This document shows positions 17,354-39,523 of a stretch of 64,000 nucleotides of DNA, piece after piece (within the stretch, counting starts at the first letter, position 1; each line of letters begins with the position of its first letter). The notes below the pieces were generated by a model. That model saw nothing but the letters and a program-made list of their open reading frames with translations, had not been told where the DNA came from and did not search any database. The position numbers were made by a program, and so were the translations under genes. This DNA is from an uncultured Oscillospiraceae bacterium (GTDB lineage Bacteria > Bacillota > Clostridia > Oscillospirales > Oscillospiraceae), in NCBI GenBank assembly GCA_947630755.1, contig CANRIU010000005.1, positions 1 to 64,000 of the forward strand, read 5' to 3'.

Positions 17354-19231
17354 TCAAATGTCTATCTTGCAGGCGGAAACTATCTCCCCCACGGCGTAGC
17401 TTCCAAAGAGCGACCCGTCGGGCAGCCTTGTGTAGGACAGCACCTTCTCATAAAGCTCCGGAAGCGTCTCCGCCCCGCCGGAGGCCCAGTCAAGGCACCT
17501 GTCCCGGGCCGTGGAGAGCCTTGCCTCCACCGCCCCCAGCCTTCCGTCGATTATCTCAAAGCCGTAGGGCTTGTTCGTGGTATTCCAGAGCCTCCGCCAC
17601 ACAAGCCTCAGCTCCTCCACATCCCCGATGGTCCCCGTGAGCCCCTCGGCAAGCTCCCGCACAAGCTCCCTGTCCCCGGCCCTGACGGCGGGAATGGAGC
17701 GCTGGTGCCACAGGCATTTGGATGAGAGCGCCCGGGCAAGCTTTTCGTAAAACTCCCAGAGCAGCGCGTAAGCCCCGCCCTCTCCGGCGTATGAGCCGTA
17801 CTCCGCCTCCAGCCTTTTGTAGTGGGAGGCCATGTCCATCCCCGCCGTGTCGTCGGCGTAGAGCTGCACGAGGGGGTCCTGATACAGCAGGAACTTCGCG
17901 GCGTTCACCGGCCGCATGGGCCCGGCCTTCATCCCGGGCACGGTGTTGAACCGCGACAGCGCGTAAAATCTCTCAAGCTCCCCGCCGCAGCACGTCTTAA
18001 GGCGCTCCGCCATCCATCCCTCGTCATACCCGCCGGTGTACTCAAACTCCGCGTAGAGCTGCATACCCGCCAGGGACGCCAGGATGTTCGTCTCCGCGCC
18101 GTTGTCTCCCCAGGCGCACCCCACGCAGAAGGGCACGCCCGCCTCCTTCGCGGCCTCCAGGCCGCTCAGTGAATTTGCCAGCGCCTTTTTGTAGTCCGGC
18201 GCGGGACCGGACCATGTCCAAAGTCCCCCGGCGAACAGTGTCTCGCCCCCCAGCAGCCTGTGCTTGCGGAGCATCTCCGCATGTTCCTCTTTTTTCTCGT
18301 GGTAGTAATCCCAGTACATTATCCCCACGTCCGGGAGGGCGCTGGCAATTGACTCCGGGGTGGGATCCCCGGTGTCGTAATAGCCGCCTGTGGGCGAATC
18401 AGGTCTGAAAAACATATCTCCCCACATCATGGGCTTAAGGCCCATCTCGACGCACATATCCCGCACGCGCTTTAAATGGCGGCGGATTATGTCGTGGGGC
18501 GGCTCGTAGCCGTGGATGGTCACATGCCGTCCGAGGCCGATGCCGTGGGCCTCGTCCATGCCGATGTGTATCCTCCTCGTGCGGTAGGGCGCGCTGGCTG
18601 CCCGGAGCATTGCGGCGATGAATTTGTACGTCTCCTCGTCGTCGCACAGCAGCACCTCGCCGTTGTCCATGAATTTCTGCATCTCGGGCCAGCGCAGGGC
18701 GCGGTTCAAGTGCCCCAGCGTCTGGATAAAGGGTATGAGCTCTATCCCCAGCGTAAAGGCGTAGTCGTCAAGCTCCGCAAGCTCCTTTTGCGTGTACCTG
18801 CCCCGCATGTATCCGAAGTACGGGTACTCCGGCACCTCGTATGTCTCCTCGGTGTACATCATAGCGCAGTCCATGCCCATGAGGGCCATTTTCCGCAGCA
18901 CCGCCTTCAGCGTTGGGATATTCGGCACGGCGTTTCGCGAGGCGTCCACCATGTACCCCGTCTCAAAGCAGGACCGCTCTGCGCGCTCCATATCCTCCCC
19001 GTCCCGGAGCTCTGCGAGCAGGGATATGGCCCTGTATGCGTGGACAGGCTTTGCCCAGCCTATCCTTATCTCCCCGCCCTTTTTGCGGACCTCCGGCCCG
19101 GGGGCGCGGAAAAGCTCCACCTCGGCGCCGGAGCCGGAAAGCTCTATCCCCAACTCCGGCGCAAGCTCCGCCATGGCGGCCTCGAACCTCTCCGGCAGAA
19201 CGCCTGTGAAATTAAATTTCATCTTTTTCAT
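17354..19231 (-). CDS. Glycoside hydrolase family 20 beta-N-acetylhexosaminidase
   Basis: A 625-residue enzyme expected to remove terminal beta-linked N-acetylglucosamine or N-acetylgalactosamine. The catalytic Asp-Glu pair lies in RRIHIGMDEAHGIGLG, the GH20 hallmark. It is preceded by GIELIPFIQTLGHLNRALRW in the barrel and followed by PMMWGDMFFR. No signal peptide is visible, so it probably acts inside the cell on imported oligosaccharides, consistent with the nearby ABC importer. The C-terminal ~200 residues are an alpha-helical extension found in the short GH20 subgroup. ATG 19231 follows GAGAGGA. It is 18 bp downstream of nagB. Confidence 0.9.
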   Translation of the reverse strand: MKKMKFNFTGVLPERFEAAMAELAPELGIELSGSGAEVELFRAPGPEVRKKGGEIRIGWAKPVHAYRAISLLAELRDGEDMERAERSCFETGYMVDASRNAVPNIPTLKAVLRKMALMGMDCAMMYTEETYEVPEYPYFGYMRGRYTQKELAELDDYAFTLGIELIPFIQTLGHLNRALRWPEMQKFMDNGEVLLCDDEETYKFIAAMLRAASAPYRTRRIHIGMDEAHGIGLGRHVTIHGYEPPHDIIRRHLKRVRDMCVEMGLKPMMWGDMFFRPDSPTGGYYDTGDPTPESIASALPDVGIMYWDYYHEKKEEHAEMLRKHRLLGGETLFAGGLWTWSGPAPDYKKALANSLSGLEAAKEAGVPFCVGCAWGDNGAETNILASLAGMQLYAEFEYTGGYDEGWMAERLKTCCGGELERFYALSRFNTVPGMKAGPMRPVNAAKFLLYQDPLVQLYADDTAGMDMASHYKRLEAEYGSYAGEGGAYALLWEFYEKLARALSSKCLWHQRSIPAVRAGDRELVRELAEGLTGTIGDVEELRLVWRRLWNTTNKPYGFEIIDGRLGAVEARLSTARDRCLDWASGGAETLPELYEKVLSYTRLPDGSLFGSYAVGEIVSACKIDI

Positions 19232-19249
19232 TTTATCCTCTCGATCTCT

Positions 19250-20008
19250 TTAAAGAAGCGCCGCGCTGTCCCTGTCGAGGTAGAGCGTCGCGTTATTATG
19301 CCGCCGGAGTATGGACGCGGGGCAGCTCTCGGAAATGGGGCCCAGCACCGTGTCCCTCACCGCTCTGGCCTTCGCCGACGCCGGGACGACGCAGAATACC
19401 CTCTCCGGCGCGGTGAGCGCCGGGATAGTCAGCGTCAGGGCCGTCCTCGGCACCTCGTCCAGGGACTTGAAGCACCCGTCGTGGACCTGCTGCATCCGGC
19501 AAACCTGGTCAAGCTCCACCGTCTTCACCGTCTCCGGGTCGTCAAACCTGGCCACATGGGGGTCGTTGAAGGCAATGTGCCCGTTCTCCCCGATGCCCAT
19601 TACGACTATGTCCGCGGGGTATTTTTTCAAAAGCTCCCCGTAGCGCCGCGCCTCCGCCTCCGGGTCCGCGGTGCAGTCCATGCACCGCACCTCCCCGAAG
19701 GGCACCCTGTCAAAGAGCGCCCGGCGCAGGAAATTTGCAAAGCCCTGGGGCGCGTCCGGGCGAAGGCCGATGTACTCGTCCATGTGGAAGGCCCTGACCC
19801 GGAACCAGTCTATCCTGTCCGACGCCGCGAGGGCGGAGAGCACCTCGTTCTGGCTGGGGGCCGCCGCGAAGATAATGTTGCAGCCGCCCTTCTCCTCAAT
19901 GACGCGCTCCACCGCGTCCTCGATGTCCGCCGCCGCCGCCCTGCCCATCTGCAGGCGGTTGGGGTAAGTGCGGACCCTGAGCCTGTCCGAAGTAAAGCTC
20001 ATTCCCAA
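19250..20008 (-). CDS. nagB: Glucosamine-6-phosphate deaminase
   Basis: Converts glucosamine-6-phosphate to fructose-6-phosphate and ammonia in the cytoplasm. The 252-residue sequence carries FHMDEYIGL and VMGIGENGHIAFNDP, the NagB active-site motifs, and a late HNNATLYLD segment. The length matches bacterial NagB. The frame opens at TTG 20008, 7 nt after AGAGGTG; ATG 20002 is an alternative with 13 nt spacing. It lies 6 bp after nagA, which supplies its substrate, and just before the GH20 gene. Confidence 0.93.
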   Translation of the reverse strand: MGMSFTSDRLRVRTYPNRLQMGRAAAADIEDAVERVIEEKGGCNIIFAAAPSQNEVLSALAASDRIDWFRVRAFHMDEYIGLRPDAPQGFANFLRRALFDRVPFGEVRCMDCTADPEAEARRYGELLKKYPADIVVMGIGENGHIAFNDPHVARFDDPETVKTVELDQVCRMQQVHDGCFKSLDEVPRTALTLTIPALTAPERVFCVVPASAKARAVRDTVLGPISESCPASILRRHNNATLYLDRDSAALL

Positions 20009-20014
20009 AACCGC

Positions 20015-21184
20015 TCACCTCTCATATCGCACCTCACCGTCGGTGAGGACGTACTTTATCTCCATGTCGTCGTCGAAGATCACAATGTCCGCCGCCCTGC
20101 CCGGGAGCAGCAGCCCCGTCCTGTCGGCTATCCCCGCCGCTCTCGCCGGGGTCTCCGTCATCATCCTGACGGCCTCCCCCAGAGGCGCGCCGCCGATGGT
20201 GCTCATGGTCCTGACAAGCCTGTCGGTGGTGCATATGCTGCCGGCAAAGGCCATCCTGTCCGGCATCTTTGCCACGCCGTCCTCCAGTATCACCCGCTGA
20301 CCGTTGGCAAGGCTCCCCAGTATGCTCTCTCCCCCGGTCTGTCCCGCCGCCCGCATGGCGTCGGTGACAAGGCAAAGCCGCCTCGAGCCTATGAACCTGT
20401 ACGCCGTCTCAAGCAGCGGCCCCGGCAGGTGGCACCCGTCGGCTATGACCTCGCTGGTGAGGGAGTCGAGCAGATACGCGCTCTCCAGCACCCCCGCCCG
20501 GCGAAAGCCCATGTGGCGTGTTATGGTGGACATGGCGGAGTACAGGTGCGTCACATGGCTGTACCCGTGCCGCACGGCCCTCACAACGTCGTCGTACTGC
20601 GCGTCCGAGTGCCCTATGCTTCCGACGATGCCCTTTTGCTCCATCCAGTCGCCCATCTCCAGCGCCCCGGCCCTCTCCGGGGCCACGGTCCAGCGCCGTA
20701 TGTCGGGGCACAGCTCAAAAAGCGCCCTGTACTCCTCCGGGTCCGGGTCGCGGATGTACGCCGGGTCCTGCGCGCCGCACTGGCTCACCGCCAGATACGG
20801 CCCCTCCACATGGACCCCGAAGAATTTGGCCCCGTCACTGAAGCCCTCCCGGCAGGAGTTGTATGTCCTCAGCGCCGCCTCCAGCTCCTCCCGCCCCGCG
20901 GCGAGGGTCGTGGGCAGCATCCCCGTGGTCCCGTGGGTGAGGTGCAGCCGGGACGCCCCGTGAAATGCCTCCCGCGTCCCGTCCATGAAGTCGTGCCCGC
21001 CTCCGCCGTGAACGTGGATGTCAATGAACCCGTGGGAGAGGTAAAGTCCCCTCCCGTCTATGTACGTCTCCCCGGAAAGGCTCCCCCGGGACCCTATCGC
21101 GGCAATTACGCCGCCCTCGATGCCCACCTCCCCGGGGTCGATTATCCCCCCGGAGGCGACAAGCACGTTTCTTATTACTCTCAT
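20015..21184 (-). CDS. nagA: N-acetylglucosamine-6-phosphate deacetylase
   Basis: Removes the acetyl group from GlcNAc-6-phosphate to give the NagB substrate. A 389-residue amidohydrolase-superfamily protein with the motifs FIDIHVHGGGGHDFMDG, FGVHVEGPYL (metal-binding Glu), GSIGHSDAQYD and THLYSAM (metal histidines) and LVTDAM (catalytic Asp). The canonical HLFNAM is HLYSAM here. ATG 21184 is preferred to the tracked start three codons earlier because GGGGAT then sits about 8 nt upstream. It is in the middle of the catabolic operon, with nagB 6 bp downstream. Confidence 0.93.
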   Translation of the reverse strand: MRVIRNVLVASGGIIDPGEVGIEGGVIAAIGSRGSLSGETYIDGRGLYLSHGFIDIHVHGGGGHDFMDGTREAFHGASRLHLTHGTTGMLPTTLAAGREELEAALRTYNSCREGFSDGAKFFGVHVEGPYLAVSQCGAQDPAYIRDPDPEEYRALFELCPDIRRWTVAPERAGALEMGDWMEQKGIVGSIGHSDAQYDDVVRAVRHGYSHVTHLYSAMSTITRHMGFRRAGVLESAYLLDSLTSEVIADGCHLPGPLLETAYRFIGSRRLCLVTDAMRAAGQTGGESILGSLANGQRVILEDGVAKMPDRMAFAGSICTTDRLVRTMSTIGGAPLGEAVRMMTETPARAAGIADRTGLLLPGRAADIVIFDDDMEIKYVLTDGEVRYER

Positions 21185-21217
21185 GGCGATCATCCCCGGA
21201 TCAGTTAATGAATAAAT

Positions 21218-22090: not shown

Positions 22091-23122
22091 TCATAATCTC
22101 ACGGGAAGCCCCGTCCTGGAGGACTCGTATATGGCGCATATCACCCGTATCGCGGGTATGGCGTCCTCCGGCGGGAGCATTACCTCCCTGTCCTCCCGGA
22201 CGGCCTGGGCGATGTCCCGCAGAAGCGTAATGTGCCCGTGTATCGCTATGTTCACGTTGCTGCCGGAGCCGCCCATGGCGCCGCCCACCTTGTCCGGGCG
22301 TGCCGGGGCATCGGCCTCGTCAATAAACCTCCACTCCGTTATCCCCTCGTCGTTGAAGGCCACGGTCCCCCTGGAGCCGTGTATGACGAAGGCGGTGGAG
22401 AAGCCGGGGTAGGCCGATGTGGCGCTCTTTATGACGCACACGGACCCGTCCTTCATCTGAAGCACAGCCGCCGCCGTGTCCTCCACGTCAATGTCGTGGG
22501 CCAGCGTCGCCGCCCTTCCGTAGACGGACTCCACCTCGCCCCCCAGCATCCAGAGTATCAGGTCCACCCCGTGGACACCCTGATTCATAACGGCGCCGCC
22601 GCCGTCCAGCTCCCAGGTCCCCCGCCAGTCTCCGCTGTCGTAGTAAGCCTGGTCCCGGTAATATCTCAGGTCCGCCTCGGCAAGGCACACCCGCCCCAGC
22701 TTTCCCTCCCGGACGGCGTTCCGGACGGCTATGGCGGAGGGCATGGTCCGGCGCTGGTGGATGCTCTGCATCTTAACTCCCGCGTCCCGGGCGGCCTTCG
22801 CCGCCGCCTCTGCCCGCTCCGGCGTTATCTCCAGCGGCTTTTCGCAGACGATGTGCTTGCCTGCCCTCGCCGCCATCTCGCAGATCTGCCCGTGTATGCC
22901 GCTGGGCACGCACACGCACACGATGTCCACATCGGGGTCCGCCAGGATCGCCTCATCGTCGTAGTAGACCTTCTGCACGCCGTGCTCTTTGGCGTATTTG
23001 TCCGCCCTCTCCGGCACCGTGTCGCAGCAGGCGTAGAGCACGCAGCCCTCGCCCTTGAGGGCCTTCAGCGCCATCGCGTGGGTAAATGCTATGACCCCGC
23101 AGCCGATTATTCCAAAATTCAT
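22091..23122 (-). CDS. Gfo/Idh/MocA family oxidoreductase (343 residues)
   Basis: An NAD(P)-binding sugar oxidoreductase. The N-terminus IIGCGVIAFTHAMALKAL is the Rossmann loop. HIVCEKPLEITPE contains the catalytic-lysine EKP motif, SIHQRRTMPSA follows, and GAVMNQGVHGVDLILWMLG matches the active-site H/D helix of the family. GGAGG precedes ATG 23122 by 7 nt. It lies 25 bp upstream of the isomerase and 72 bp downstream of a second dehydrogenase. Paired dehydrogenases with an isomerase often perform oxidation-epimerisation-reduction or keto-sugar chemistry. Confidence 0.9.
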   Translation of the reverse strand: MNFGIIGCGVIAFTHAMALKALKGEGCVLYACCDTVPERADKYAKEHGVQKVYYDDEAILADPDVDIVCVCVPSGIHGQICEMAARAGKHIVCEKPLEITPERAEAAAKAARDAGVKMQSIHQRRTMPSAIAVRNAVREGKLGRVCLAEADLRYYRDQAYYDSGDWRGTWELDGGGAVMNQGVHGVDLILWMLGGEVESVYGRAATLAHDIDVEDTAAAVLQMKDGSVCVIKSATSAYPGFSTAFVIHGSRGTVAFNDEGITEWRFIDEADAPARPDKVGGAMGGSGSNVNIAIHGHITLLRDIAQAVREDREVMLPPEDAIPAIRVICAIYESSRTGLPVRL

Positions 23123-23194
23123 ATTTATCCTCCCGGGCGCGCCGCGCCCCAGCCCGTCAAATGCTTTACTTCCTTTTTGCAGGGAAGGCCCAAA

Positions 23195-24136
23195 TCAAAG
23201 CGCGTACATCTTCCCCGCGGCGGCGCCGTAGCCCCGCTTAAACTCCGGCCCGTCAAAGCTCGGCCCGTCCTCCGAAAGCTCCGAGAGCTTCACCGCCGCC
23301 CCTCCGGCGGCCCTTGACGCCGCCCCGGCGAGGGCGATCTTCACGCTCTCCGTGAGGGCCTCCACCCCCGCGAGGAGGTTCGGCTTCCCCTCCATGAAGT
23401 CCGCGATCTGCTCCATGAGCGCGTCATAGAGCCGCCCGGAGTTTATCTTCAGTACAAATGTGTTCTTCGTCGTTATCACCGTCAGCGTGAAGGGCTGCCA
23501 TGTGCCCGTCATGCAGGTGTAGACGGCGCTTTTACCGTCGGCGAAGGATATATGCCAGCTCTCCGCGTACTTGCCCCCGGCCTCGCCCCGGCCCATGTAG
23601 CGCACCTCCCGCGCCCCGGTCCCGAGTAGTCCGCCGATGGCCTCCACAATATGTATGCCGTAGTTGAACTCATCCACTCCCGTGGTTCCGAGGACGGTGA
23701 TTATCTCCCCCCGCTCAGCTTCCGGCACGGCCAAAAACTCCTGTATCTCGTAGCAGTACCTGGCGCTGGAGGAGCCCAGCACCACCGCGCCCTCCCTTAC
23801 AAGGCGCTCAAGCTTACGCACGTCCCTCAGATTCCCCACCGCGGGCTTGTCGAGGAACACGGGCTTTCCCGCGTTTATAAAGGGCATCGCGCACCTTATG
23901 TGCTCCTCCCAGTCACAGCCCTGGATGAAGCCTATGTCGCACATTCCAGCAAGCTCCTCCAGCGTCCCGCAGCGCCTCTCAAGGCCGTAACGCTCAATGA
24001 AGCCCTCAACCTCCTCCGGTCCCCGGAAGGAGTCGTTGTATACCCCCACATATCCCATGCGCCCGGACTTCTTCATGGAGTCTGCAAAGCCCATGGGGTG
24101 GGATGTGTCTATGTTTACCGCACCAACTCTGATCAT
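23195..24136 (-). CDS. Gfo/Idh/MocA-like oxidoreductase (313 residues), first gene of the amino-sugar run
   Basis: A divergent member of the family: MIRVGAVNIDTSHPMGFADSM replaces the usual glycine-rich loop. The EKP motif appears as FLDKPAVGNLRD, and DEFNYGIHIVEAIGGLLG supplies the active-site His region. Altered cofactor binding is possible. ATG 24136, preceded by GGGAGGA at 7 nt, is used rather than the tracked start 31 codons upstream. It is divergent from the second beta-lactamase-fold gene and probably the first gene of the operon that ends at the terminator near 14.47 kb. A TATAAT-like -10 lies near 24213-24218 on this strand, without a clear -35. Confidence 0.82.
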   Translation of the reverse strand: MIRVGAVNIDTSHPMGFADSMKKSGRMGYVGVYNDSFRGPEEVEGFIERYGLERRCGTLEELAGMCDIGFIQGCDWEEHIRCAMPFINAGKPVFLDKPAVGNLRDVRKLERLVREGAVVLGSSSARYCYEIQEFLAVPEAERGEIITVLGTTGVDEFNYGIHIVEAIGGLLGTGAREVRYMGRGEAGGKYAESWHISFADGKSAVYTCMTGTWQPFTLTVITTKNTFVLKINSGRLYDALMEQIADFMEGKPNLLAGVEALTESVKIALAGAASRAAGGAAVKLSELSEDGPSFDGPEFKRGYGAAAGKMYAL

Positions 24137-25563: not shown

Positions 25564-27411
25564 TTATCTCTTTCCCTTCATGGCGGCAATGAGCTCCCCG
25601 GCGTCGGGGAACGCGTCGCCGTATATCCTGTGCATCGCCCCCAGGCACTGGGGAAGCCCCTTGACAAGGGTGTTCACGCCGTACCTCGTGCTCAGCGTCA
25701 CGTTCACTCCGCACTGTGTGAGCGCCCACTGGCTGAGTATGTCGTACCCCCCACCCGGGTAGGCCAGCACGTCCACCCGCTCCCCGGTGACGGCCTCTAT
25801 CTGGCTGCGGCTGCGTTCGAAGTCCTTCTGAAGCGCCCGGACGTACTCCTCCTCGTCCTCGTCCTCAAACCTCAAAAGCGTCTCCCGCACATGCCCCCCC
25901 GTCTCGAATGGCGGCCACTGGTGCATATCGTATGTGTGGCTCTGTATGGATATGACGCCGGAGCTTGACATCTCCGCCATCTCCTCCTCGTCAAAGTGGG
26001 GCGTCATAACAAATTCCGTGTCCTTGTAAAACTCCTTGTGCCCCACTGAGACGCCGATGACGAATATCGTCGCCCTCATGCCGTACTTCTCCAAAAGCGG
26101 GTATGCGTACTCGTAATTTGAGTAGTACCCGTCGTCAAAGGTTATGACGACGCACTTCTCCGGAAGCTCCGTCCCCCGGTAAACATAGTCCTCCAAGTCC
26201 CTGAAGGTCACGCTCTCGTACCCGGCCTTTCTGAGCGCCGCGAGCTGGCCCTCCAGCATGGACACCGTCGCCCCCTCCTCGCCGTCGGGCACGATGTTGT
26301 GGTACACAAGTATCGGCACGTCCTTCGTCCACTCGTCTGTCCGGGGCCGGGAGGCGAAAACCGCGTCGTTTCTCTCCACAAGCTCCACTGCGTTCTCCCG
26401 GGTCACATACACCCCGAAGTCCTCCGGGACATACACATCCCCGTTTCCGAACATCCTCGCCAGAGCCATGGACCCCACGCAGTTGCGAAAATGGGTGAGA
26501 TCGTAAAAATACCTCGGCTCCGTGCTCACGCTGCTTATGGAGAAGTCCCAGTAGTCCGTGACCTCGGCAAGGGAGGTGTAAAACTCCTCCGCCTCCTGCC
26601 TGTCCACGCCCTGCATATACCCCGAGTACACCGGCCCGCAGACCACGATAAGGTTGACCCCAGCCTCATCGCACATTTCCTTTATCCTGACAAGGCTCTC
26701 CATCGCCTGCGCCGTCTTTTTCAGCGGCACATGGTAGGTGGGGTAGTCCGCAAAGCCGCTGTACTGCTCTATGGCCTCGTACTCCTCAAGGCCGCTTATT
26801 GGCTCCGCGTCCCGCTCCCGCTTGTCGTAGCAGCCCGTCTTTACGTCAAATACGTCGTAGGGCTCCGCCAGAAGCTCGTCCTTGAAGAAGCTTCTCACCT
26901 TGTCTATGGCGTAGTTTGGGTCAAGGAACAGATACTTCCAGTAAAACGCCGCCAGGGAGCTTTCGTCCACCCGGGCGTGCATCGCCCCCGTCAGGTTGTC
27001 AATGCCCGGGTCGTCGTAGGTGTGCCCGTTGTCGATGTACACGTTCAGAAGTATGTTTTTGACGGTGTAGTTTTTGATTATATATCTCACAAAATCCTCG
27101 GAGTCCAGCATATCCGCCCCGTAGGTGAAGAGATTATAAAACCTCGCGTCCATATACTCGTCAAGCTCCTCCACCGGGAAGGAGCTGGTGGAGGAGCAGC
27201 CGATGATGTATGAGTCGTACTCGTCGCAGTGCCTGTCAAGGTACTCTATCTTCCCCACCCTGGGGTTCAGCGTCTGGCTGTAGGAGTCCCAGTGGAATAT
27301 CACGTCCCCGAACACCCCGAAGGGGTCCACCAGCACGTTGAAGGCCAGCGTCAGAAGCCCGAAGGCGAGGACGGTGCACACAAAGGCGACAAGCCATTTT
27401 TTTGAGCTCAC
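25564..27411 (-). CDS. Fusion of DltD/AlgX-like SGNH domain with NodB polysaccharide deacetylase
   Basis: A 615-residue, membrane-anchored, extracytoplasmic protein. Residues 8-28 form one transmembrane anchor. Residues 30-340 are an SGNH/DHHW-like domain with the serine block YIIGCSSTS (residues 68-75) and the D-x-x-H block DLTHF (Asp304, His307). Residues 365-610 are a NodB deacetylase: ITFDDGY (423-429), SHTYDMH (491-497; one residue longer than HSxxH) and LAYPGGGYD. GTG 27411 follows GAGGAGGG. It is the last gene of the Dlt-like operon, in the place of dltD. A role in transferring an acyl group to, and deacetylating, a surface glycan is inferred. Confidence 0.85.
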   Translation of the reverse strand: MSSKKWLVAFVCTVLAFGLLTLAFNVLVDPFGVFGDVIFHWDSYSQTLNPRVGKIEYLDRHCDEYDSYIIGCSSTSSFPVEELDEYMDARFYNLFTYGADMLDSEDFVRYIIKNYTVKNILLNVYIDNGHTYDDPGIDNLTGAMHARVDESSLAAFYWKYLFLDPNYAIDKVRSFFKDELLAEPYDVFDVKTGCYDKRERDAEPISGLEEYEAIEQYSGFADYPTYHVPLKKTAQAMESLVRIKEMCDEAGVNLIVVCGPVYSGYMQGVDRQEAEEFYTSLAEVTDYWDFSISSVSTEPRYFYDLTHFRNCVGSMALARMFGNGDVYVPEDFGVYVTRENAVELVERNDAVFASRPRTDEWTKDVPILVYHNIVPDGEEGATVSMLEGQLAALRKAGYESVTFRDLEDYVYRGTELPEKCVVITFDDGYYSNYEYAYPLLEKYGMRATIFVIGVSVGHKEFYKDTEFVMTPHFDEEEMAEMSSSGVISIQSHTYDMHQWPPFETGGHVRETLLRFEDEDEEEYVRALQKDFERSRSQIEAVTGERVDVLAYPGGGYDILSQWALTQCGVNVTLSTRYGVNTLVKGLPQCLGAMHRIYGDAFPDAGELIAAMKGKR

Positions 27412-27423
27412 TTCACACCCTCC

Positions 27424-28971
27424 TCATATTCGCCCGTAGATAAACTCCCCGGCGCCGCTGCCCGCGCTTATCACCCCGAAGATGAGTATCACCGCAAGGG
27501 GCACGGCGATGGCGAGCCACTGGACGAAGGCCCCCCGCTTTGCAAGGTACGCCCGTATCCCGACTCCCCGCTCCTCGATATACTCCGCCGCCAGCACCAC
27601 GGCGCAGCCCGCCGCCACCAGCGCCAGATCAAAAAAGCTCATGCCAAGCCCCGTCACCACCCCCGGAAGCTCCCGGAGGCGCAGGTCAAAGACGGACCTT
27701 TTGAGCATCACAAGTGACATCTTGAGCCACGGCGCCCTTGTCAGGTACCGCCCGACGAACACCACAAGGGATGTCCTCACAATGCAAAAGGCCCTGTAAA
27801 GCCCGCCGCTCTCATTCACCTTCAGCGCCTTTTTCACCCGCGTGTAAAAGGGCGCAAGAAGTATGGACGATGTGATTATCGCCCCGTTATAAAGCCCGTA
27901 GGCGAGGAACGTCAAATTCGCCCCGTGCCATATGCCGATTATGAAGTAGACAATAAACGTCGCCAGCGACGTGGGCAATATCCTCCCCAGCTTCCCGCTC
28001 AGGTGCTTTCTTGAGAATCGCCCCAGCGCCGCGAAGGGCTTTGACAGGCTCAGGGGATAGAACACATAGTCCCGCATCCACCCGCCGAGGGTCATGTGCC
28101 ACCTGCGCCAGAACTCCGCCAGCGACAGGGAGAATATGGGCCGCCGGAAGTTTTCCGCCATATTAATGCCGAAAAGCCCCGCCGTCCCCCGGACGATGTC
28201 TATCCCTCCGGAGAAGTCGCAGTAAAGCTCGATGGTGTACATCAGCACCGCAAACACCGACGCGCACCCGGGGTACGCGCCCGCGTTGGCGTACACCGCC
28301 CCCACAACTGTCCCGGCGCGGCTAGCAATGACCAGCTTTTTGAAATACCCCCACATCATGAGCTGTATGCCGTCCCGGACCTCGTCCGTGTCCGGCCTTC
28401 TCCCGGCAAAAAGCTGCGGTGCCAGATGCTCGAACCTGTCTATCGGCCCCTGGACCATCTGGGGGAAGAAGCACACAAAGAGAAGATACCTGGGAAAGCT
28501 CCGCTCCGCCGCCGTCTTGCCCCGGGACACATCCGCCACATAGCCTATGGACTGGAAGATGTAAAATGAGATGCCCATCGGCACCACAAGCCCCAGCGCG
28601 GGAAGCCGGAGGAAGGCCAGGCTCTCCGACACGAAGTCCCAGTATTTTATGGCGAAAAGCATCCCGAAATTCACGGCGCAGGCCGCCCCGGTGACGAGAT
28701 GCCGCCTCCTGTCGTGGGACCTTTTTGAGCTCCGGCGCTGCTCGCCGTCCATAGCCGCCCGGCGGTCGTTCTCCCGCTGGAGCAGAAGGGCGGCAAAATA
28801 TGTGGTCACTGCCGTGACCGCCATATACGCCGCGGCGGCGGGTCCCCCCGCCGCGTAAAATATTACGCTCGCCGCCAGCAGCGCCCACCATCTCACCCTC
28901 TGGGGAAGCACCCGGTAGACCACCGCCAGCAGCGCAGCAAAGCCCGCAAAGGCGAAGGACGTGATGGACAT
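27424..28971 (-). CDS. MBOAT family O-acyltransferase (DltB-like)
   Basis: A 515-residue multi-pass membrane protein of the MBOAT family. It shows VPMGISFYIFQSIGYVADV, FFPQMVQGPIDRF, LYCDFSGGIDI, FWRRWHMTLGGWMRDYVFYPL and the catalytic histidine in FIIGIWHGANLTF. These proteins carry an acyl or aminoacyl group from a cytoplasmic carrier to the outside; DltB does so with D-alanine, AlgI with acetyl. The start shares one base with the stop of the carrier-protein gene (TAATG), and the SGNH-deacetylase follows 12 bp later. Adjacency to the adenylation enzyme and carrier favours a DltB-like role. Confidence 0.9.
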   Translation of the reverse strand: MSITSFAFAGFAALLAVVYRVLPQRVRWWALLAASVIFYAAGGPAAAAYMAVTAVTTYFAALLLQRENDRRAAMDGEQRRSSKRSHDRRRHLVTGAACAVNFGMLFAIKYWDFVSESLAFLRLPALGLVVPMGISFYIFQSIGYVADVSRGKTAAERSFPRYLLFVCFFPQMVQGPIDRFEHLAPQLFAGRRPDTDEVRDGIQLMMWGYFKKLVIASRAGTVVGAVYANAGAYPGCASVFAVLMYTIELYCDFSGGIDIVRGTAGLFGINMAENFRRPIFSLSLAEFWRRWHMTLGGWMRDYVFYPLSLSKPFAALGRFSRKHLSGKLGRILPTSLATFIVYFIIGIWHGANLTFLAYGLYNGAIITSSILLAPFYTRVKKALKVNESGGLYRAFCIVRTSLVVFVGRYLTRAPWLKMSLVMLKRSVFDLRLRELPGVVTGLGMSFFDLALVAAGCAVVLAAEYIEERGVGIRAYLAKRGAFVQWLAIAVPLAVILIFGVISAGSGAGEFIYGRI

Positions 28972-29198
28972 TACTTCTCCCTGGCCCTGTTTACAAGCTC
29001 ACAGATGGTCTCCGCACTGGCGAAATTCTCCGGCACCAGGTCGTCCACATCTATCTGCACGTCGTAGGCCGACATCAGCTCCGAGACTATCATCACGATG
29101 TCGAGGCTCGTCAGTATCCCGTCCTCCACAAGGTCCTTCTCCGTCTCAAAGTCCACTCCCGGACACACGCTCTGAAGTATCCCGATAAGCTCGTCCAT
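28971..29198 (-). CDS. Acyl/aminoacyl carrier protein (DltC-like)
   Basis: A 75-residue acidic carrier protein. The expected phosphopantetheine attachment serine is in GILTSLDIVMIV; the usual DSL motif is TSL here. Length, acidity and four-helix pattern fit an acyl or D-alanyl carrier protein. It would be charged by the adenylation enzyme encoded upstream and deliver its cargo to the MBOAT protein, whose gene overlaps it by one base. AAAGGA lies about 12 nt before the ATG. No phosphopantetheinyl transferase gene is in the window. Confidence 0.85.
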   Translation of the reverse strand: MDELIGILQSVCPGVDFETEKDLVEDGILTSLDIVMIVSELMSAYDVQIDVDDLVPENFASAETICELVNRAREK

Positions 29199-29207
29199 TT
29201 TGCCAAA

Positions 29208-29993
29208 TCATCCTTTCATCAAAACCTGGGACGTATATCCGTCCCGGCAAAAGCCTCTCTTCTCATATACCGCCAGCGCTGCGGCGTTCTCCCGACCGGT
29301 CCAGACGGTGAGCCCCGCCCCGGGGTATTTTCCGATGAGCGCGTCCACCAGCTCCCCGCCGATGCCCTCGCCGCGAAATGACCTCTCCACCGCGAGCTGC
29401 CGTATCTCCCCCCGCCGTCCGGCAAGGGAGAACCGCAGCACCCCCGCGATAACGGAGCCCGACCTTGCCGCGAGCACAAGCCCCCGGTCAATGTCCTCCC
29501 GGAGCTGTGCCTCCCCGGGAAGGCACCCGGTCAGCGCGTCAAAGCTCCCCCGCAGAAGCTCCGCCACGGCCTCCGCCTCCCCCGGCAGAGCCGGGGAGAT
29601 TTCCGTCCCCGCAAAGCCCCCTGCGGACCCCGCAGCATCAGGAGATCCGCTCTCCTCCGCCCCCCGGGCCCTGCGGGCGAGCCTCACTCTCTCAAGTATG
29701 ACCCTGTATCCCGCGTCCTTGAATATCTCCGCCGCCCCCGTAACTCTTTGGGAGTTCGGTATCTCCGTCACAACCATCCCCGGAAGCTCCGGCACGGGTC
29801 CCGACGTCATGAGAAAGCTGAGCGCCTCCCAGCTCTCCCTCCGGCGGAGTATGAAAAGCCCGTTCTCGAGCTTTAGTATCCGCAGCTCATCCCGCCGCAG
29901 CCCTGCCGGGTCGGCAAGATTCGTCATAAGCCCCGGCCTTAGATATTTCGGTATGAGCGCCGCGGCCTCCTCATAGCTCGCCCTTTCTGGCAT
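29208..29993 (-). CDS. GNAT family N-acetyltransferase inside the Dlt-like operon
   Basis: A 261-residue protein. The C-terminal half (about 125-260) is a GNAT domain with IRQLAVERSFRGEGIGGELVDALI, the acetyl-CoA pyrophosphate loop R-G-x-G-I-G, and AALAVYEKRGFCRDGY. The N-terminal 120 residues (ending in a Gly/Ala/Ser linker) are not recognised and may be a degenerate GNAT repeat (SWEALSFLM, AEIFKDAGYRVIL). It overlaps the adenylation gene by 23 bp and precedes the carrier gene by 9 bp, so it is a true operon member. Acetylating the amino acid or carrier-bound cargo is one possibility. Confidence 0.78.
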   Translation of the reverse strand: MPERASYEEAAALIPKYLRPGLMTNLADPAGLRRDELRILKLENGLFILRRRESWEALSFLMTSGPVPELPGMVVTEIPNSQRVTGAAEIFKDAGYRVILERVRLARRARGAEESGSPDAAGSAGGFAGTEISPALPGEAEAVAELLRGSFDALTGCLPGEAQLREDIDRGLVLAARSGSVIAGVLRFSLAGRRGEIRQLAVERSFRGEGIGGELVDALIGKYPGAGLTVWTGRENAAALAVYEKRGFCRDGYTSQVLMKG

Positions 29994-31491
29994 CCTCGTA
30001 TTCCCTCCTGAGGGCCGGCCTGTCCACCTTGCCGTTTCTGTTTCGCGGCAGGACCCGGCTGCGCCTGAATATGTTCGGTATCATGTACCTGGGCACCAGC
30101 TCCCGAAGTCTCCGGACGATCTCCTCCTTCTCCGCGTCCCCCTCGTAGGCGCATACGATCCTGTCCTCCGCCTCGTCGTAGAAGCACACGGCGCACCGCA
30201 CGCCCTCCACGGCGGAGAGGGCCGTCTCTATCTCCCCCAGCTCTATCCTGTATCCCAGGTGCTTTATCTGCCCGTCGGAGCGGCTGGAGAAGTACAAAAG
30301 CCCGTCCTCCCCCAGATGCGCAAGATCCCCCGTGCGGTAAACCGTATCGGGCCAGTCCGGATTCAGTGGATTTTGAATGAACGCCCCCCGGGTCCTCTCG
30401 CTGTCGCCGAAGTACCCCATCGCAAGCCCCGTGCCCCTGACGCATATCTCCCCGGTCTCACCTGAGGCGACGGGCTTTAAGTCCTCGCCCAGGAGCATTA
30501 TCTCCATGTTCCCGCAGGCCCTGCCTATGGGTATCGGCTCGTGATCCTCAAACTCCCTGTCTATCCTGTACCAGGCGCAGTCCACCGTCACCTCCGTCGG
30601 CCCGTAGAGGTTTATGAACTCCGCCTCCGGCAGCGCCCTGCGCCAGATATTCAGATCCCTTGCGCGCAGCGTCTCCCCGCCGAGTATCACCTTCCGCACC
30701 GACCCCGGCGCGGCCCTCTCAAGTATCCCCGAGCCCGCCGTCATGGCGAAGGCCGACGTGGCCCATATGAGCGTGGTGACTCCCCGCCTGTCAAGCTCCT
30801 CGATAAGCAGCTTCGGGAACATGAAGCACTTTCCCGGCAGTATGTGCGCCGTCGCGCCGCACTTCACCGTCAGCCACAGGTCCTTCACCGACAGGTCAAA
30901 GTAAAACGGCGCCTGATTGCCCATCACATCCGCGTCCGTTATGCCGCACTCCGGCGCCATCCACTCCAAAAAATCGATGAGCGCCCTGTGGGGTATGACT
31001 ATCCCCTTCGGAGCCCCGGTGGAGCCGGAGGTGAATATCATGTACGCGGGGTCAGAATCTATGACCCCCGCCCGACGCCTCTCCAGCTCCTCCGCCCTGG
31101 GAGGGACGGAGTACAGCTCCGGCGTCAGTGCTCCTGCGGTAAAACAGTCCCGCAGGTCGTCCCGGCTCTCCGCCAGCACCGCCTCGGGCCTGAGCCTCTC
31201 AACGATCCCCTTCAGCCGCATTTCCGGCATTTTCCTGTCAAGGGGCACATAGAAGCACCCCGCGGCGAGAACCCCCATTATCGCCGAGACCGCGGCAACG
31301 CTGCGCTCGCACAGCACCGCCACCGGGCGGCCCCTGCGGCAGCCCATGTCCGTGAGGGCCGTCCCCACAGCCAGCGCCCGCCTTAAAAGCTCCCCGAAGG
31401 TCAGCTCCTCCCGCCCGTCGGAGAACGCCGTCTTCTCCGGCATCCTCCCGGCGGTATCCATGAGGTATTGGAAAGCATTCCTGATGTTCAC
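29971..31491 (-). CDS. Amino acid adenylation enzyme (DltA-like)
   Basis: A 506-residue stand-alone adenylation domain of the ANL superfamily. Core motifs are visible: A3 YMIFTSGSTGAPKGI, A4 APFYFDLSVKDLW (the Asp that holds the substrate amino group), A5 NLYGPTEVTVDCAW, A7 YRTGDLA and A10 NRNGKVDRPALR with the catalytic lysine. Length and A4/A5 match DltA, which loads D-alanine onto DltC. The specificity here is not proven. Translation begins at GTG 31491 with GGAGG 7 nt upstream. It is the first gene of the five-gene operon. Confidence 0.88.
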   Translation of the reverse strand: MNIRNAFQYLMDTAGRMPEKTAFSDGREELTFGELLRRALAVGTALTDMGCRRGRPVAVLCERSVAAVSAIMGVLAAGCFYVPLDRKMPEMRLKGIVERLRPEAVLAESRDDLRDCFTAGALTPELYSVPPRAEELERRRAGVIDSDPAYMIFTSGSTGAPKGIVIPHRALIDFLEWMAPECGITDADVMGNQAPFYFDLSVKDLWLTVKCGATAHILPGKCFMFPKLLIEELDRRGVTTLIWATSAFAMTAGSGILERAAPGSVRKVILGGETLRARDLNIWRRALPEAEFINLYGPTEVTVDCAWYRIDREFEDHEPIPIGRACGNMEIMLLGEDLKPVASGETGEICVRGTGLAMGYFGDSERTRGAFIQNPLNPDWPDTVYRTGDLAHLGEDGLLYFSSRSDGQIKHLGYRIELGEIETALSAVEGVRCAVCFYDEAEDRIVCAYEGDAEKEEIVRRLRELVPRYMIPNIFRRSRVLPRNRNGKVDRPALRREYEDARKGEL

Positions 31492-31563
31492 TCCGTGGCC
31501 TCCGATGCCGCGCCGGAAATTCCGCGCTCTTCCACAAAAAAGCGCGCAAAACGCGATTTAAAC

Positions 31564-31592
31564 AGTCTACCATATGCCCCCGAAAAAGTCAA
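31564..31592 (-). promoter_or_regulatory. Promoter of the Dlt-like operon
   Basis: Minus-strand -35 TTGACT (31592-31587), 17-nt spacer, -10 TAGACT (31569-31564), 73 nt upstream of the GTG start. Confidence 0.65.
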
Positions 31593-35962: not shown

Positions 35963-36022
35963 TACGTCAGCAGCGGACAAAAAAAGGCGGTTTACGCCGA
36001 AAAATGAATGGAGGAATGTACT

Positions 36023-36799
36023 ATGGAGGATCGCGGCGCGGTCATCATCGCGATGACCGGAAAGGGCGGAGTTGGGAAGACCTCCCTTGCAGCCATCATG
36101 GTCGGCGAGCTTGTGCGGGAATTTCCCGGAAAGCGCATCCTCGCCATCGACGCGGACCCCGCGGTGGGGCTCAGCACCGCCCTCGGGGTGGAGGTGGAGA
36201 CGACCGTTGACGACATCCGCCGGGAATTCGTCAGCACCGTGGAGGGCGGCGACAGCCGCTCCGCGCTGGAGCTTCTGGGCGACGCCCGCTTTCGGCTCTT
36301 TGACGCGCTGGTGGAGGCGGAGGGCTTCTCCTTCCTCGCCATCGGCAGGCCAGAGGCCGCCGGGTGCTACTGCAAGGTCAACTCCTACCTCAAAGACGTG
36401 ATAAGCGTCCTGTCGTCAAATTTCGACTACATAGTCATAGACGGCGAGGCCGGCATCGAGCAGGTGAACAGGCGCGTGATGGAGAAGGTCACCCACCTTG
36501 TCCTTGTCACAGACGCCAGCCGCAAGGGTGTGCAGGTCATACACACCATCCGAGATGTGGCGAGGGACCTTGTGATGTATGAGCGCGCCGGGGCTATCCT
36601 GAACCGCCTCCCCGCCTCCGCCATGGAGCGTGGCGTGGACATCGGTGACATACCCGTTCTCGCCGCCATACCCGCGGACGACGCCCTTGCGGGGCTTGAC
36701 ATCGAGGGCAGCAGCGTCCTTGAGCTCCCGGACGGCTCACCTGTCCGCGCGGGAGTGCGCCGGGCGCTTTGCGGCCTCGGGATATTAAAGGAGGAATAA
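36023..36799 (+). CDS. CooC-type nickel-chaperone ATPase (MinD/ParA family)
   Basis: A 258-residue P-loop ATPase. Visible are the deviant Walker A MTGKGGVGKTSLAA (from about residue 11), the Walker A' region ILAIDADPAVGLSTALG, and VIDGEAGIEQVNRR. It also has GCYCKVNSYLKD with the C-x-C pair (Cys115, Cys117) that in CooC binds Ni at the dimer interface. CooC loads nickel into carbon monoxide dehydrogenase or acetyl-CoA synthase. No such complete enzyme is in the window; the gene instead heads an operon of 2-hydroxyacyl-CoA dehydratase genes. ATG 36023 with GGAGGA at 7 nt is preferred to ATG 36008. The next gene begins one base after its stop. Confidence 0.85.
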   Translation: MEDRGAVIIAMTGKGGVGKTSLAAIMVGELVREFPGKRILAIDADPAVGLSTALGVEVETTVDDIRREFVSTVEGGDSRSALELLGDARFRLFDALVEAEGFSFLAIGRPEAAGCYCKVNSYLKDVISVLSSNFDYIVIDGEAGIEQVNRRVMEKVTHLVLVTDASRKGVQVIHTIRDVARDLVMYERAGAILNRLPASAMERGVDIGDIPVLAAIPADDALAGLDIEGSSVLELPDGSPVRAGVRRALCGLGILKEE

Positions 36800-36800
36800 G

Positions 36801-37985
36801 ATGAGGGACTTAAGACACCTCTACTACCTTGAAAATCTCCTTCAGGAGAACAATAACGAGCTTGTGCGAAAGGCCCGGGAGGAGGGTCGGCGCTGCGTGG
36901 GCACCGTCTGCTACCAGATCCCGGAGGTGCTTTTGAATCTCCCGGGGATATTCTCCGTGCGCCTTCGCGCTCCCCGCACTGGGTCCATGGAGATGGGCAC
37001 CTACTACATGACCTCCCTCACCTGCGAATACTGCCGCGCCCTGCTGGAGCGGGGCCTTGAGGGTGGATACAGGTTTATAGACTGCCTCATGGAGCCGGCC
37101 AGCTGCTCCCAGATGGCGGACTGCACCGAGAACCTTGAGAAGCTCGACCTTTTAGGCCCCGGCTTCTTCGTCCAACACGTCGACACCCCCATGAAGGACG
37201 ACCTGAACGGCATCGAGCACATGATAAAAATGTGCCGGGTCCGTGTCCTTGACAGGCTCCACGAGGCCTTCGGGATAGACGTCTCCGACGAGGCCATAAA
37301 AAAGGCCGTCGCCGTCCACAACGAGGTCTGCGACCTCATCACCGAGATTGGCAACTACCGGAAGGACCTGCGTCCCCGGATAACCGGGTATGAGTTTGCC
37401 GTTCTCTGCCTTGCCACATACTGCTGCCCCAAGGACCTGCTGCTGCCCATACTCCGGGAGACGGCCCAGGAGCTCCGGACCCGTGAGCCCGACGAGAAGT
37501 CCCCCTGGCGCGTGCGCGTGGCCGTCGCCGGGGCGGAGATAGACGACCCCGACTTCATAAAGCTCATCGAGGACACCGGGGCCTACGTCGCCGTGGACCG
37601 CTACTGCTTCGGCTCCTTCCCCGGCCGCAGCAGGATAGAGCTTTCGGACAACGAGGACATCCTCACCCAGATATGCCGCAAGTATGTCACCGAGTGCCAG
37701 TGCCCCAGGTTCATGAACACCTCCAAGGTCGCGGGCCGCAAGGAGTACATCGACTCTCTCGCCCGGGAGTACTCCTGCGACGGGATAATACTTCAGCAGA
37801 TAAACTTCTGCAACTTCTGGGGCTATGAGCGCGCCGGGGGGATGCATGTGCTGACTCACGACTACAGCTGGCCCGTTCTCAGCCTCGACCGCCCCTACGT
37901 TGTGGGCGTCTCCGGGCAGATTCGCACCCGTGTACAGGCATTTATCGAGCGCGTGGAGCTCAAAAAGCTGGGAGGTAACGACTGA
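36801..37985 (+). CDS. 2-hydroxyacyl-CoA dehydratase family subunit (HgdB/FldC-like, 394 residues)
   Basis: A 394-residue member of the 2-hydroxyglutaryl-CoA dehydratase D-component family. RRCVGTVCYQIPEVLLNLPGIFSVRLRAP corresponds to the N-terminal cluster-binding segment. TCEYCRALLERGLEG and EPASCSQMADC add cysteines that can ligate a [4Fe-4S] cluster, and QQINFCNFWGYE matches the C-terminal K/N-F-C-x-x-W motif. The family removes water from (R)-2-hydroxyacyl-CoA through a ketyl radical or reduces benzoyl-CoA-like rings. The substrate is unknown. It overlaps the next subunit gene by one base. Confidence 0.85.
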   Translation: MRDLRHLYYLENLLQENNNELVRKAREEGRRCVGTVCYQIPEVLLNLPGIFSVRLRAPRTGSMEMGTYYMTSLTCEYCRALLERGLEGGYRFIDCLMEPASCSQMADCTENLEKLDLLGPGFFVQHVDTPMKDDLNGIEHMIKMCRVRVLDRLHEAFGIDVSDEAIKKAVAVHNEVCDLITEIGNYRKDLRPRITGYEFAVLCLATYCCPKDLLLPILRETAQELRTREPDEKSPWRVRVAVAGAEIDDPDFIKLIEDTGAYVAVDRYCFGSFPGRSRIELSDNEDILTQICRKYVTECQCPRFMNTSKVAGRKEYIDSLAREYSCDGIILQQINFCNFWGYERAGGMHVLTHDYSWPVLSLDRPYVVGVSGQIRTRVQAFIERVELKKLGGND

Positions 37986-39523
37986 TGGGAAAAGCGATAA
38001 ATTCCGAGCCCCTGGGAAAATTCTACAAGGGCGGCAAGACCCGCACCCGCCGGGAGTGGCGGGGCGTCCGTGACACCTTCTACGACTACACCTGCTGGCT
38101 CCACAACTGGGGCTCCATGATAAAATTCCTTGCAAAGCCCCAGAATCTGAAGGGCTTCCTCCACTACCGCTGGATGCAGAACTATCTTGCCACCCCCGAC
38201 TTCATCGACCGCCACACCGAGGGCCTTCGGGGACCCCAGTTGAGAGTCGCCCACAAGGAGTTTGACTTCATCGTCTCCCACGTCTGCGACACCATGACCG
38301 CCATCTTCGCCGGGGACAGGGCCATCGGCGGCAAGGAGAAGGTCTGGCGCCAGACCGTGGTCATGGACGAGAACATGATGACCCAGATAATGAACGGCTT
38401 TCCCAACCTCAAGGCCAGATGCGTCCAGATACCCATCGTCTATATGCCCTCCACCGTCCAGCAGGAGGGCGTGCTCTACTACATAGACCGTGCCCAGGAG
38501 TTCGGCATCCCCGGGGACGTGTGCCCCATGCCTGCGGCGGAGCTTGGCGCGGTGCTGGAGGACGACTTCCCGAAGACCGGCATCTGCGCCCTCCAGTGCA
38601 ACACCACCTGCGACGGCTCCCTCATGGGCAACGGCATAGAGGAGCGCCGCTACGGCATCCCCACCCACCAGGTCGCCGTCCCCATCCGCTACACCGACCC
38701 CGCCACCCGGGACTACGCCGCTCAGGAGATAAAAAACGCCATAAAATTCGTGGAGGAGCAGACAGGCGAGAAGTGGGACTGGGACTACTACTTTAAAAAC
38801 ATAAGGAACTTCAACCGTGAGACGGAGTACTTCCGCCAGTGGCTGGAGGTCTCCCGCACCGAGTACCCCCAGGTCATAGGCAACAACGTGGCCCTCTACC
38901 GGGACGCCTACTACCAGGTCGCCGGAGGCCGTGACGAGGCCTTCGTTGAAAACGAGCGGGAGATTTGCGAGATAATGGAGAAGGCCTACCTCGACAGGAC
39001 CCCCGTGGTGAGCACCGTCCGCCACCGGGCAATACTCTGGGGCGTCCAGGCCCAGTACTACACCGCCTTCCCCCTGTGGCTCCAAAACTGCTGGGGAATA
39101 GTCCCCCTCATCGACATGCTGAGCCTCACCTCCACCGACATCTACAGCGAGGACGACAAAGAGCAGGCGTACTACGACATGGCGGACATGTACGCCAAGA
39201 TGAATATGCGCAACCGCTCCGAGGGCGGCTATGAGGTTGGCGTGGAGGACCTCTGGCGCTTCTGCGAGGAATTCAACGCCGACGTTGTCATAATGTACGA
39301 GCACATCGGCTGCAAGTCCATGACGGGCTACCACGGCCTTTTCGATCAGGAGGCCGCGAAGCACGGCGTCCACCTCATCTGGGTCACCCACGGCCTCATG
39401 GACCCCCGCAAGGCCAGCCGCCAGAGTATGCGCACCGATGTCAACCGCTATATGCGCGCGGTGCTCAACGAGGAGCCCTTAGACCCGTCCCTTGAGGAGT
39501 TTGACGACTCTAACGCCTGGTAA
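37985..39523 (+). CDS. 2-hydroxyacyl-CoA dehydratase family subunit (long, 512 residues)
   Basis: A 512-residue partner subunit. The C-terminal half is recognisable as 2-hydroxyacyl-CoA dehydratase (RHRAILWGVQAQYYTAFPLWLQNCWGIVPLIDM, FNADVVIMYEHIGCKSMTGYHGLFDQ). The N-terminal part has FIVSHVCDTMTAI, GIPGDVCPMPAAELG and CALQCNTTCDG, a cysteine-rich set. It is longer than typical HgdA or FldB (about 380-480). It is rich in aromatic residues near the N-terminus (WLHNWGSMIKFL). The stop is 15 bp before the activase start. With the shorter subunit it probably forms the heterodimer that the activase reduces. Confidence 0.82.
   Translation: MGKAINSEPLGKFYKGGKTRTRREWRGVRDTFYDYTCWLHNWGSMIKFLAKPQNLKGFLHYRWMQNYLATPDFIDRHTEGLRGPQLRVAHKEFDFIVSHVCDTMTAIFAGDRAIGGKEKVWRQTVVMDENMMTQIMNGFPNLKARCVQIPIVYMPSTVQQEGVLYYIDRAQEFGIPGDVCPMPAAELGAVLEDDFPKTGICALQCNTTCDGSLMGNGIEERRYGIPTHQVAVPIRYTDPATRDYAAQEIKNAIKFVEEQTGEKWDWDYYFKNIRNFNRETEYFRQWLEVSRTEYPQVIGNNVALYRDAYYQVAGGRDEAFVENEREICEIMEKAYLDRTPVVSTVRHRAILWGVQAQYYTAFPLWLQNCWGIVPLIDMLSLTSTDIYSEDDKEQAYYDMADMYAKMNMRNRSEGGYEVGVEDLWRFCEEFNADVVIMYEHIGCKSMTGYHGLFDQEAAKHGVHLIWVTHGLMDPRKASRQSMRTDVNRYMRAVLNEEPLDPSLEEFDDSNAW

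Follow-up and report, generated by a model that had tools for sequence, protein, structure and literature searches.

In the Dlt pathway (DltXABCD), which D-alanylates teichoic acids, the MBOAT protein hands D-alanine to the tyrosine of an FxYxxF motif in the microprotein DltX (PMC12148441). In PatA, this shuttle motif is fused to the MBOAT itself, and such systems reportedly lack carrier proteins; in the current account, carrier-protein donors go with a separate DltX shuttle and acyl-coenzyme A (acyl-CoA) donors with a fused one (PMC12148441). Here, we describe a five-gene operon of an uncultured Oscillospiraceae gut bacterium, located at 25564-31491 on the minus strand of a 64,000-nucleotide (nt) stretch of contig CANRIU010000005.1 (hereafter the window). 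It encodes an amino-acid adenylation enzyme (A-domain), a tandem GNAT acetyltransferase, a carrier protein, a DltB-like MBOAT and a fusion of SGNH and NodB domains. With fair confidence, we read it as a system for carrier-protein-dependent O-acylation and N-deacetylation of one surface glycan.

The genes are close-packed, with intergenic gaps of -23, +9, -1 and +12 nt from the A-domain gene to the fusion gene (Table 1). Open reading frames (ORFs), domain matches and the fold model bore out all five components named in the original prediction, which had been made from the DNA letters; its span kept the five genes, with the start of the A-domain gene moved from 31592 to 31491. The conserved-neighbourhood check also came out in the prediction's favour: at least 16 further loci from Clostridia have the five genes in this order, six of them L035-L040 and ten on named contigs (L067-L070, L072-L075, L078 and L087; the sequences of L068 and L069 end inside the A-domain gene). 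Within the window's genus, the order also occurs in L182-L184 and, with a broken MBOAT frame, in L187. A four-gene form without the GNAT gene was found in L041, L071, L081, L082 and L096. Flanking genes are almost never common between the five-gene loci, and a chance neighbourhood was rejected because the order recurs amid such unrelated flanks. The window's own flanks, a serine hydrolase and a GH2 gene, lie apart from the operon in G406 and G422, the two same-genus genomes in which both positions were located. A promoter scan gave counts near chance.

The fusion protein carries two complete sets of motifs, as had been predicted: G71-x-S73 and D304-x-x-H307 in the SGNH half, and TFDDG (D426, D427), H492, H497 and YPGG in the NodB half. 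Residues S73, D304, H307, D426, D427, H492 and H497 are invariant across 15 aligned fusion homologues. Full-length homologues (39-50% identity) are present in 15 of the 394 genomes of the order, the window's included, and on about two dozen named contigs, all Clostridia-type records that in part overlap with the genome set. On these grounds, an assembly artefact was rejected. The AlphaFold model (mean predicted local distance difference test score, pLDDT, 87.5) comprises an N-terminal helix and two domains. In this model, residues ~26-343 match DltD structures (Z 11.2-11.8, root-mean-square deviation (rmsd) ~4.7-5.2 Å over 234-244 residues), and residues 358-615 match PgaB (Z 28.6, 2.8 Å, 247 residues), PplD (28.4) and IcaB (26.7). 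The NodB half thus has a NodB fold with an Asp-His-His metal site and a catalytic Asp, on the evidence of the Pfam match (4e-25), the invariant motifs and the model. The SGNH half, to which no Pfam family was assigned, has a DltD-type fold and a Ser/Asp/His triad according to the model and the alignment.

The original prediction had labelled this protein an SGNH-deacetylase. The label is not supported: in characterised MBOAT-SGNH pairs, the SGNH partner is the one that passes the acyl group on to the polymer, as an O-ester (PMC12148441), and DltD is among the closest solved structures. Most likely, the SGNH half acts as an acyltransferase in the role of DltD, and the NodB half alone should deacetylate. 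Smaller SGNH esterases reach Z values of up to 12.5 against the SGNH half, so transferase and esterase are not separable by fold alone.

On the donor side, the A-domain scores 355 bits against NCBIfam TIGR01733, above the cut-off, and stays below both DltA cut-offs (TIGR01734, 271 bits against 560; PRK04813, 280 against 476). Its pocket residues D199, L200, K203, W243, I269, G271, L295, V303, D304 and K488 give the code DLKWIGLVDK, close to the DxKWxGxVDK of most A-domain relatives; L041, L082 and L096 have DVKWMSLCNK. The position equivalent to residue 301, where we take a Cys to mark the D-alanine pocket of DltA, is Gly271 in the window and Gly, Ala or Ser in the relatives. Because the code is not DltA-like, D-alanine appears doubtful as the substrate. 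The K239 and D331 equivalents presumably resemble the code for glutamate in surfactin synthetase; this likeness is too weak and was not used. The carrier protein has a probable phosphopantetheine site at Ser31 (ILTSLDIV), its Ser-Leu/Phe-Asp motif is kept in the aligned operon relatives, and it falls below the DltC cut-offs (29 bits against 68; 18.5 against 52). The predicted GNAT model (pLDDT 83) matches tandem GNATs such as MAB_4324 (7q3a), mycothiol synthase MshD and GlmA. The acetyl-CoA loop RGEGIG is intact in its C-terminal copy, and the N-terminal copy is degenerate. As the simplest guess, the GNAT would N-acetylate the amino acid, free or as its thioester. It is dispensable in sister operons, however, and a universally essential GNAT step was rejected, given the five operons that lack the gene. 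GNAT accompanies 15 of 17 VDK-type A-domains and none of the three CNK-type ones (hypergeometric p 0.009, uncorrected), an association that is suggestive only, since the loci are related.

The MBOAT is homologous to solved DltB structures (8e-26), below the DltB cut-off (TIGR04091, 157 bits against 375). Both H292 and H349 are present in the alignment, the latter being the invariant catalytic His in IGIWHG. The protein ends in EFIYGRI, which contains an acyl-shuttle motif (FIYGRI, of the type FIYxx[FI]) with Tyr512. This tyrosine is invariant in eight aligned MBOATs, and the last motif position, I in the window, is F or Y in most relatives. Two extra hydrophobic segments, 435-467 and 479-512 by hydropathy, precede the motif, and a C-terminal motif of the type F/Y-x-Y-x-x-F/Y/I/V closes practically every intact MBOAT of the set. 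There is no room for a DltX-like ORF between the genes, and none with a shuttle motif occurs in the 255 nt upstream of the A-domain gene; the search covered the locus and not the rest of the genome. Judging from the carrier and A-domain genes, the C-terminal motif and the lack of a local dltX, a carrier-protein donor and an MBOAT-fused shuttle appear to coexist in this operon. Donor type and shuttle type can, on this evidence, be mixed.

Two further sequence patterns were seen among the MBOATs. In one subclade (L041, L043, L082 and L096), the catalytic His, supposedly universal, is replaced by Gln (WQG for WHG), and this change coincides, where an A-domain is available, with the distinct CNK code and no GNAT. 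Separately, WRRWN occurs in MBOATs of the FkbH class described below (L042, L044-L047, L079, L080, L084, L089 and L095), and WRRWH in L085 and L102, relatives without FkbH, and in the A-domain class; the difference may serve as a donor marker.

The FkbH class is a second one, in which the fusion is accompanied by a very different MBOAT and an FkbH-domain protein, with a small carrier protein in most loci. The four FkbH-domain proteins tested match TIGR01686 at 236-272 bits, and a branch of ~3.6 changes per column parts the two MBOAT clades, both of which carry the shuttle motif. This arrangement is present at nine loci in about five independent lineages, as several loci come from near-identical species. 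FkbH with a carrier protein is expected to make glyceryl-acyl carrier protein (glyceryl-ACP) (PMC7489565). A carrier thioester donor would therefore be common to both classes, and one kind of fusion is served by two dissimilar donor modules. The donor module thus appears exchangeable, either A-domain or FkbH, with the final enzyme kept. Content differs even within one genus: the window is of the A-domain type, G151 is of the FkbH type, and G036 and G379 have no fusion. On the Tissierellaceae contig L102, the MBOAT gene (472 aa) lies directly between separate genes for NodB (279 aa) and SGNH (345 aa). The two activities predicted for the fusion are thus found travelling with the MBOAT even when unfused, which provides an independent link between them. 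Since the L102 SGNH falls within the FkbH-class clade of the tree, this locus may represent a fission or an older arrangement.

From the gene order, conservation, folds and motifs observed, we infer the following chemistry, acceptor included. The A-domain would adenylate an alpha-amino acid, not clearly D-alanine, and load it onto Ser31 of the carrier. The GNAT, where present, would probably N-acetylate the amino acid or its thioester. On the cytoplasmic side, the MBOAT would receive the acyl group from the carrier and hand it on to its own Tyr512 outside, where Ser73 of the membrane-anchored SGNH domain would accept it for transfer to a hydroxyl group on a surface glycan. The fused CE4 (NodB) domain would strip N-acetyl from N-acetylglucosamine (GlcNAc)-type residues of the same glycan, and the fusion would keep both modifications on one polymer. 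We favour this combined acylation and deacetylation because the gene order recurs in many Clostridia with unrelated flanks, because the two halves match DltD and PgaB/PplD/IcaB with invariant catalytic residues, and because nearly every intact MBOAT ends in a shuttle motif, as demonstrated for PatA and DltX (PMC12148441). The original proposal that one protein acts in both the (amino)acylation and the deacetylation of a glycan therefore survives in part: Dlt-like components and a complete CE4 domain on the same polypeptide speak for it, and its form as a simple dlt variant does not.

Evidence on the acceptor comes from a few neighbourhoods, as the flanking genes of the operon loci are mostly uninformative in this respect. 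The fusion of L039 is directly followed by a GT4 glycosyltransferase and a Wzx-type flippase, and some FkbH-class operons include a co-directional GtrA/GT2 protein and a large membrane protein; both point to a surface glycan as the site of action. PplD, one of the closest structural matches of the NodB half, acts on a wall polysaccharide, whose GlcNAc linkage unit it N-deacetylates (PMC8807736). The window's genome comprises 2.19 Mb on 98 contigs and is only 89% complete. At this completeness, it yielded no TagF-like enzyme (PF04464), no poly-N-acetylglucosamine (PNAG) synthase above cut-off, and 14 sulfatase-fold matches. Among the sulfatase-fold proteins, one of 685 aa (L157:1093-3150, G000 C63) is nearer to the phosphoglycerol transferase GacH than to the lipoteichoic acid synthase LtaS, and it is a possible maker of the acceptor.

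Several observations weigh against the proposed pathway. The window holds no polymer synthesis gene linked to the operon. The SGNH residues are lost, and NodB is kept, in the relatives L050-L053 and L091-L093; conversely, a tandem pair at L049:12012-15391 has lost the NodB residues in both copies, with SGNH intact. This separate loss suggests that both activities are not always needed together. The N-acetylation step is weak in particular, given the five sister operons without GNAT.

Among the alternatives, an N-acyl exchange would have the CE4 domain free the GlcNAc amine and the SGNH domain acylate that same amine, so that the polymer would exchange its N-acetyl for an aminoacyl (or glyceryl) amide and gain no separate ester. 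Two active sites on one chain, the joint conservation of both halves with two different donor modules, and the unfused neighbours in L102 would all suit such a reaction. We nevertheless consider it unlikely, as the characterised MBOAT-SGNH pairs make O-esters (PMC12148441) and the separate loss of either half argues against an obligatory two-step reaction. A related conception of polymer editing, in which one exported protein couples N-deacetylation to exchangeable acyl transfer (aminoacyl from the A-domain or glyceryl from FkbH, by way of carrier and MBOAT shuttle) and in its strongest form turns N-acetyl into an amide, is held equally tentatively.

The view taken in the original prediction, that the SGNH half is a hydrolase removing acyl groups and that another protein makes the transfer, seems more doubtful still. 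By Z, SGNH structures of the esterase type (1u8u and 6xpg among them) do score as high as DltD, at 12.0-12.5, but over only ~155-175 residues, against 234-244 for DltD. Moreover, the genome holds no match to a DltD sequence model elsewhere, the operon has no other SGNH gene, and wherever the neighbourhood is intact, the fusion almost always adjoins the MBOAT. That the A-domain, GNAT and carrier make a small molecule, their place beside the MBOAT and fusion being incidental, is improbable. In sequence, the A-domain resembles peptide synthetases no less than it does DltA; however, the overlap and order of the genes persist from family to family, unlike the flanks, and the A-domain code, GNAT absence and MBOAT His-to-Gln change coincide in one subclade. 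Least probable is a protection scheme in which GNAT acetylates the aminoacyl thioester in the cytoplasm and NodB removes that acetyl after export: GNAT and NodB do co-occur in most operons of the window's class, but operons without GNAT keep NodB, as does the FkbH class, where the glyceryl group to be expected lacks an amine, and the closest folds to NodB act on GlcNAc polymers.

Returning to the acylation and deacetylation pathway, the five-gene machine probably charges a carrier with an amino acid, which it then brings over the membrane and joins to a sugar polymer on the surface. Its fusion would unite two charge-altering modifications otherwise done by separate enzymes, and exchangeable donor modules predict both amino-acid and glycerate substituents on the surface glycans of gut Clostridia.

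Table 1. Genes of the operon in the window and parts of the encoded fusion protein.
Feature	Position	Strand	Length (amino acids, aa) and start	Family match or key residues
Amino-acid adenylation enzyme (A-domain), DltA-like role	29971..31491	-	506 aa, GTG start	Pfam AMP-binding 2.7e-71
Tandem GNAT acetyltransferase	29208..29993	-	261 aa	Pfam Acetyltransf_1 1.6e-13
Carrier protein	28971..29198	-	75 aa	PP-binding 19.5 bits, just below cut-off 20.8
DltB-like MBOAT	27424..28971	-	515 aa	Pfam MBOAT 8.1e-12
SGNH-NodB fusion	25564..27411	-	615 aa, GTG start	Pfam Polysacc_deac_1 4e-25, residues 415-570
Fusion: membrane anchor	residues ~3-28			
Fusion: DltD-like SGNH				S73, D304, H307
Fusion: CE4 N-deacetylase				D426, D427, H492, H497

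Elsewhere in the genome, three more MBOATs and no second DltA-like match of comparable score were found. Another carrier-dependent system with an A-domain, a carrier protein and an MBOAT occurs in the same genus (L189:4245-8689, L188:3278-6864, L191 and L199); in L189, L191 and L199, an unfused SGNH-like protein comes next, with the motif GDCEVYENFS, and might use Cys rather than Ser as nucleophile. In the window itself, the long plus-strand ORFs at 18476-21208 and 22232-23317 lie antisense to likely NagA/NagB-type genes and an oxidoreductase and are probably spurious, the genome being of high GC content. At 36008-39523 on the plus strand, a MinD/ArsA-type ATPase is followed by two subunits that by eye resemble 2-hydroxyacyl-CoA dehydratase components.

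Of the described systems, the Dlt pathway shares with the operon an A-domain and carrier donor, a DltB-like MBOAT with the conserved His, and a DltD-like SGNH protein, and the comparison is sound as a working analogy. The original claim that the operon mirrors dltABCD stands for these components and not for their order, which is A-(GNAT)-C-B-D rather than A-B-C-D. Although DltA, DltB and DltC rank among the best NCBIfam matches, the curated cut-offs are missed; the pocket code is not DltA-like, no local dltX is present, the shuttle is fused to the MBOAT, and CE4 is fused to SGNH. On several of the tested features, the operon falls outside the Dlt family proper, and model cut-offs, pocket residues and the place of the shuttle led us to reject a standard dlt operon. 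The open-access literature searched contained neither a description of it as a standard dlt variant nor a report that its A-domain activates a substrate unrelated to the envelope, and no earlier account of an SGNH-NodB fusion with MBOAT, of FkbH or glycerate with MBOAT, or of a bifunctional O-acetyltransferase/deacetylase of this kind was found there.

PatA/PatB-type MBOAT-SGNH pairs, which O-acetylate peptidoglycan and also acetylate alginate and cellulose, have the same FxYxxF-type shuttle on two extra transmembrane helices and a separate membrane-anchored SGNH partner. In the operon, this partner likewise adjoins the MBOAT, 12 nt downstream, and has an N-terminal hydrophobic helix. Such pairs use acyl-CoA and no carrier (PMC12148441), whereas the operon, judged by its genes, has a carrier protein and an A-domain (or FkbH), and its SGNH protein bears a CE4 domain. 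The CE4 N-deacetylases PgaB, IcaB and PplD agree with the NodB half in fold, metal-ligand motif and spacing; in the operon, CE4 is fused behind a DltD-like transferase, together with an MBOAT acylation system. The FkbH and small carrier protein of the sister operons also recall the glyceryl-ACP module of polyketide pathways, but there they are paired with MBOAT and SGNH-NodB and no polyketide synthase, and the window's operon lacks FkbH. Within the open-access literature, what is new in MBOAT-SGNH systems is a fused N-deacetylase combined with a carrier-protein donor and a built-in shuttle, served by exchangeable donor modules.

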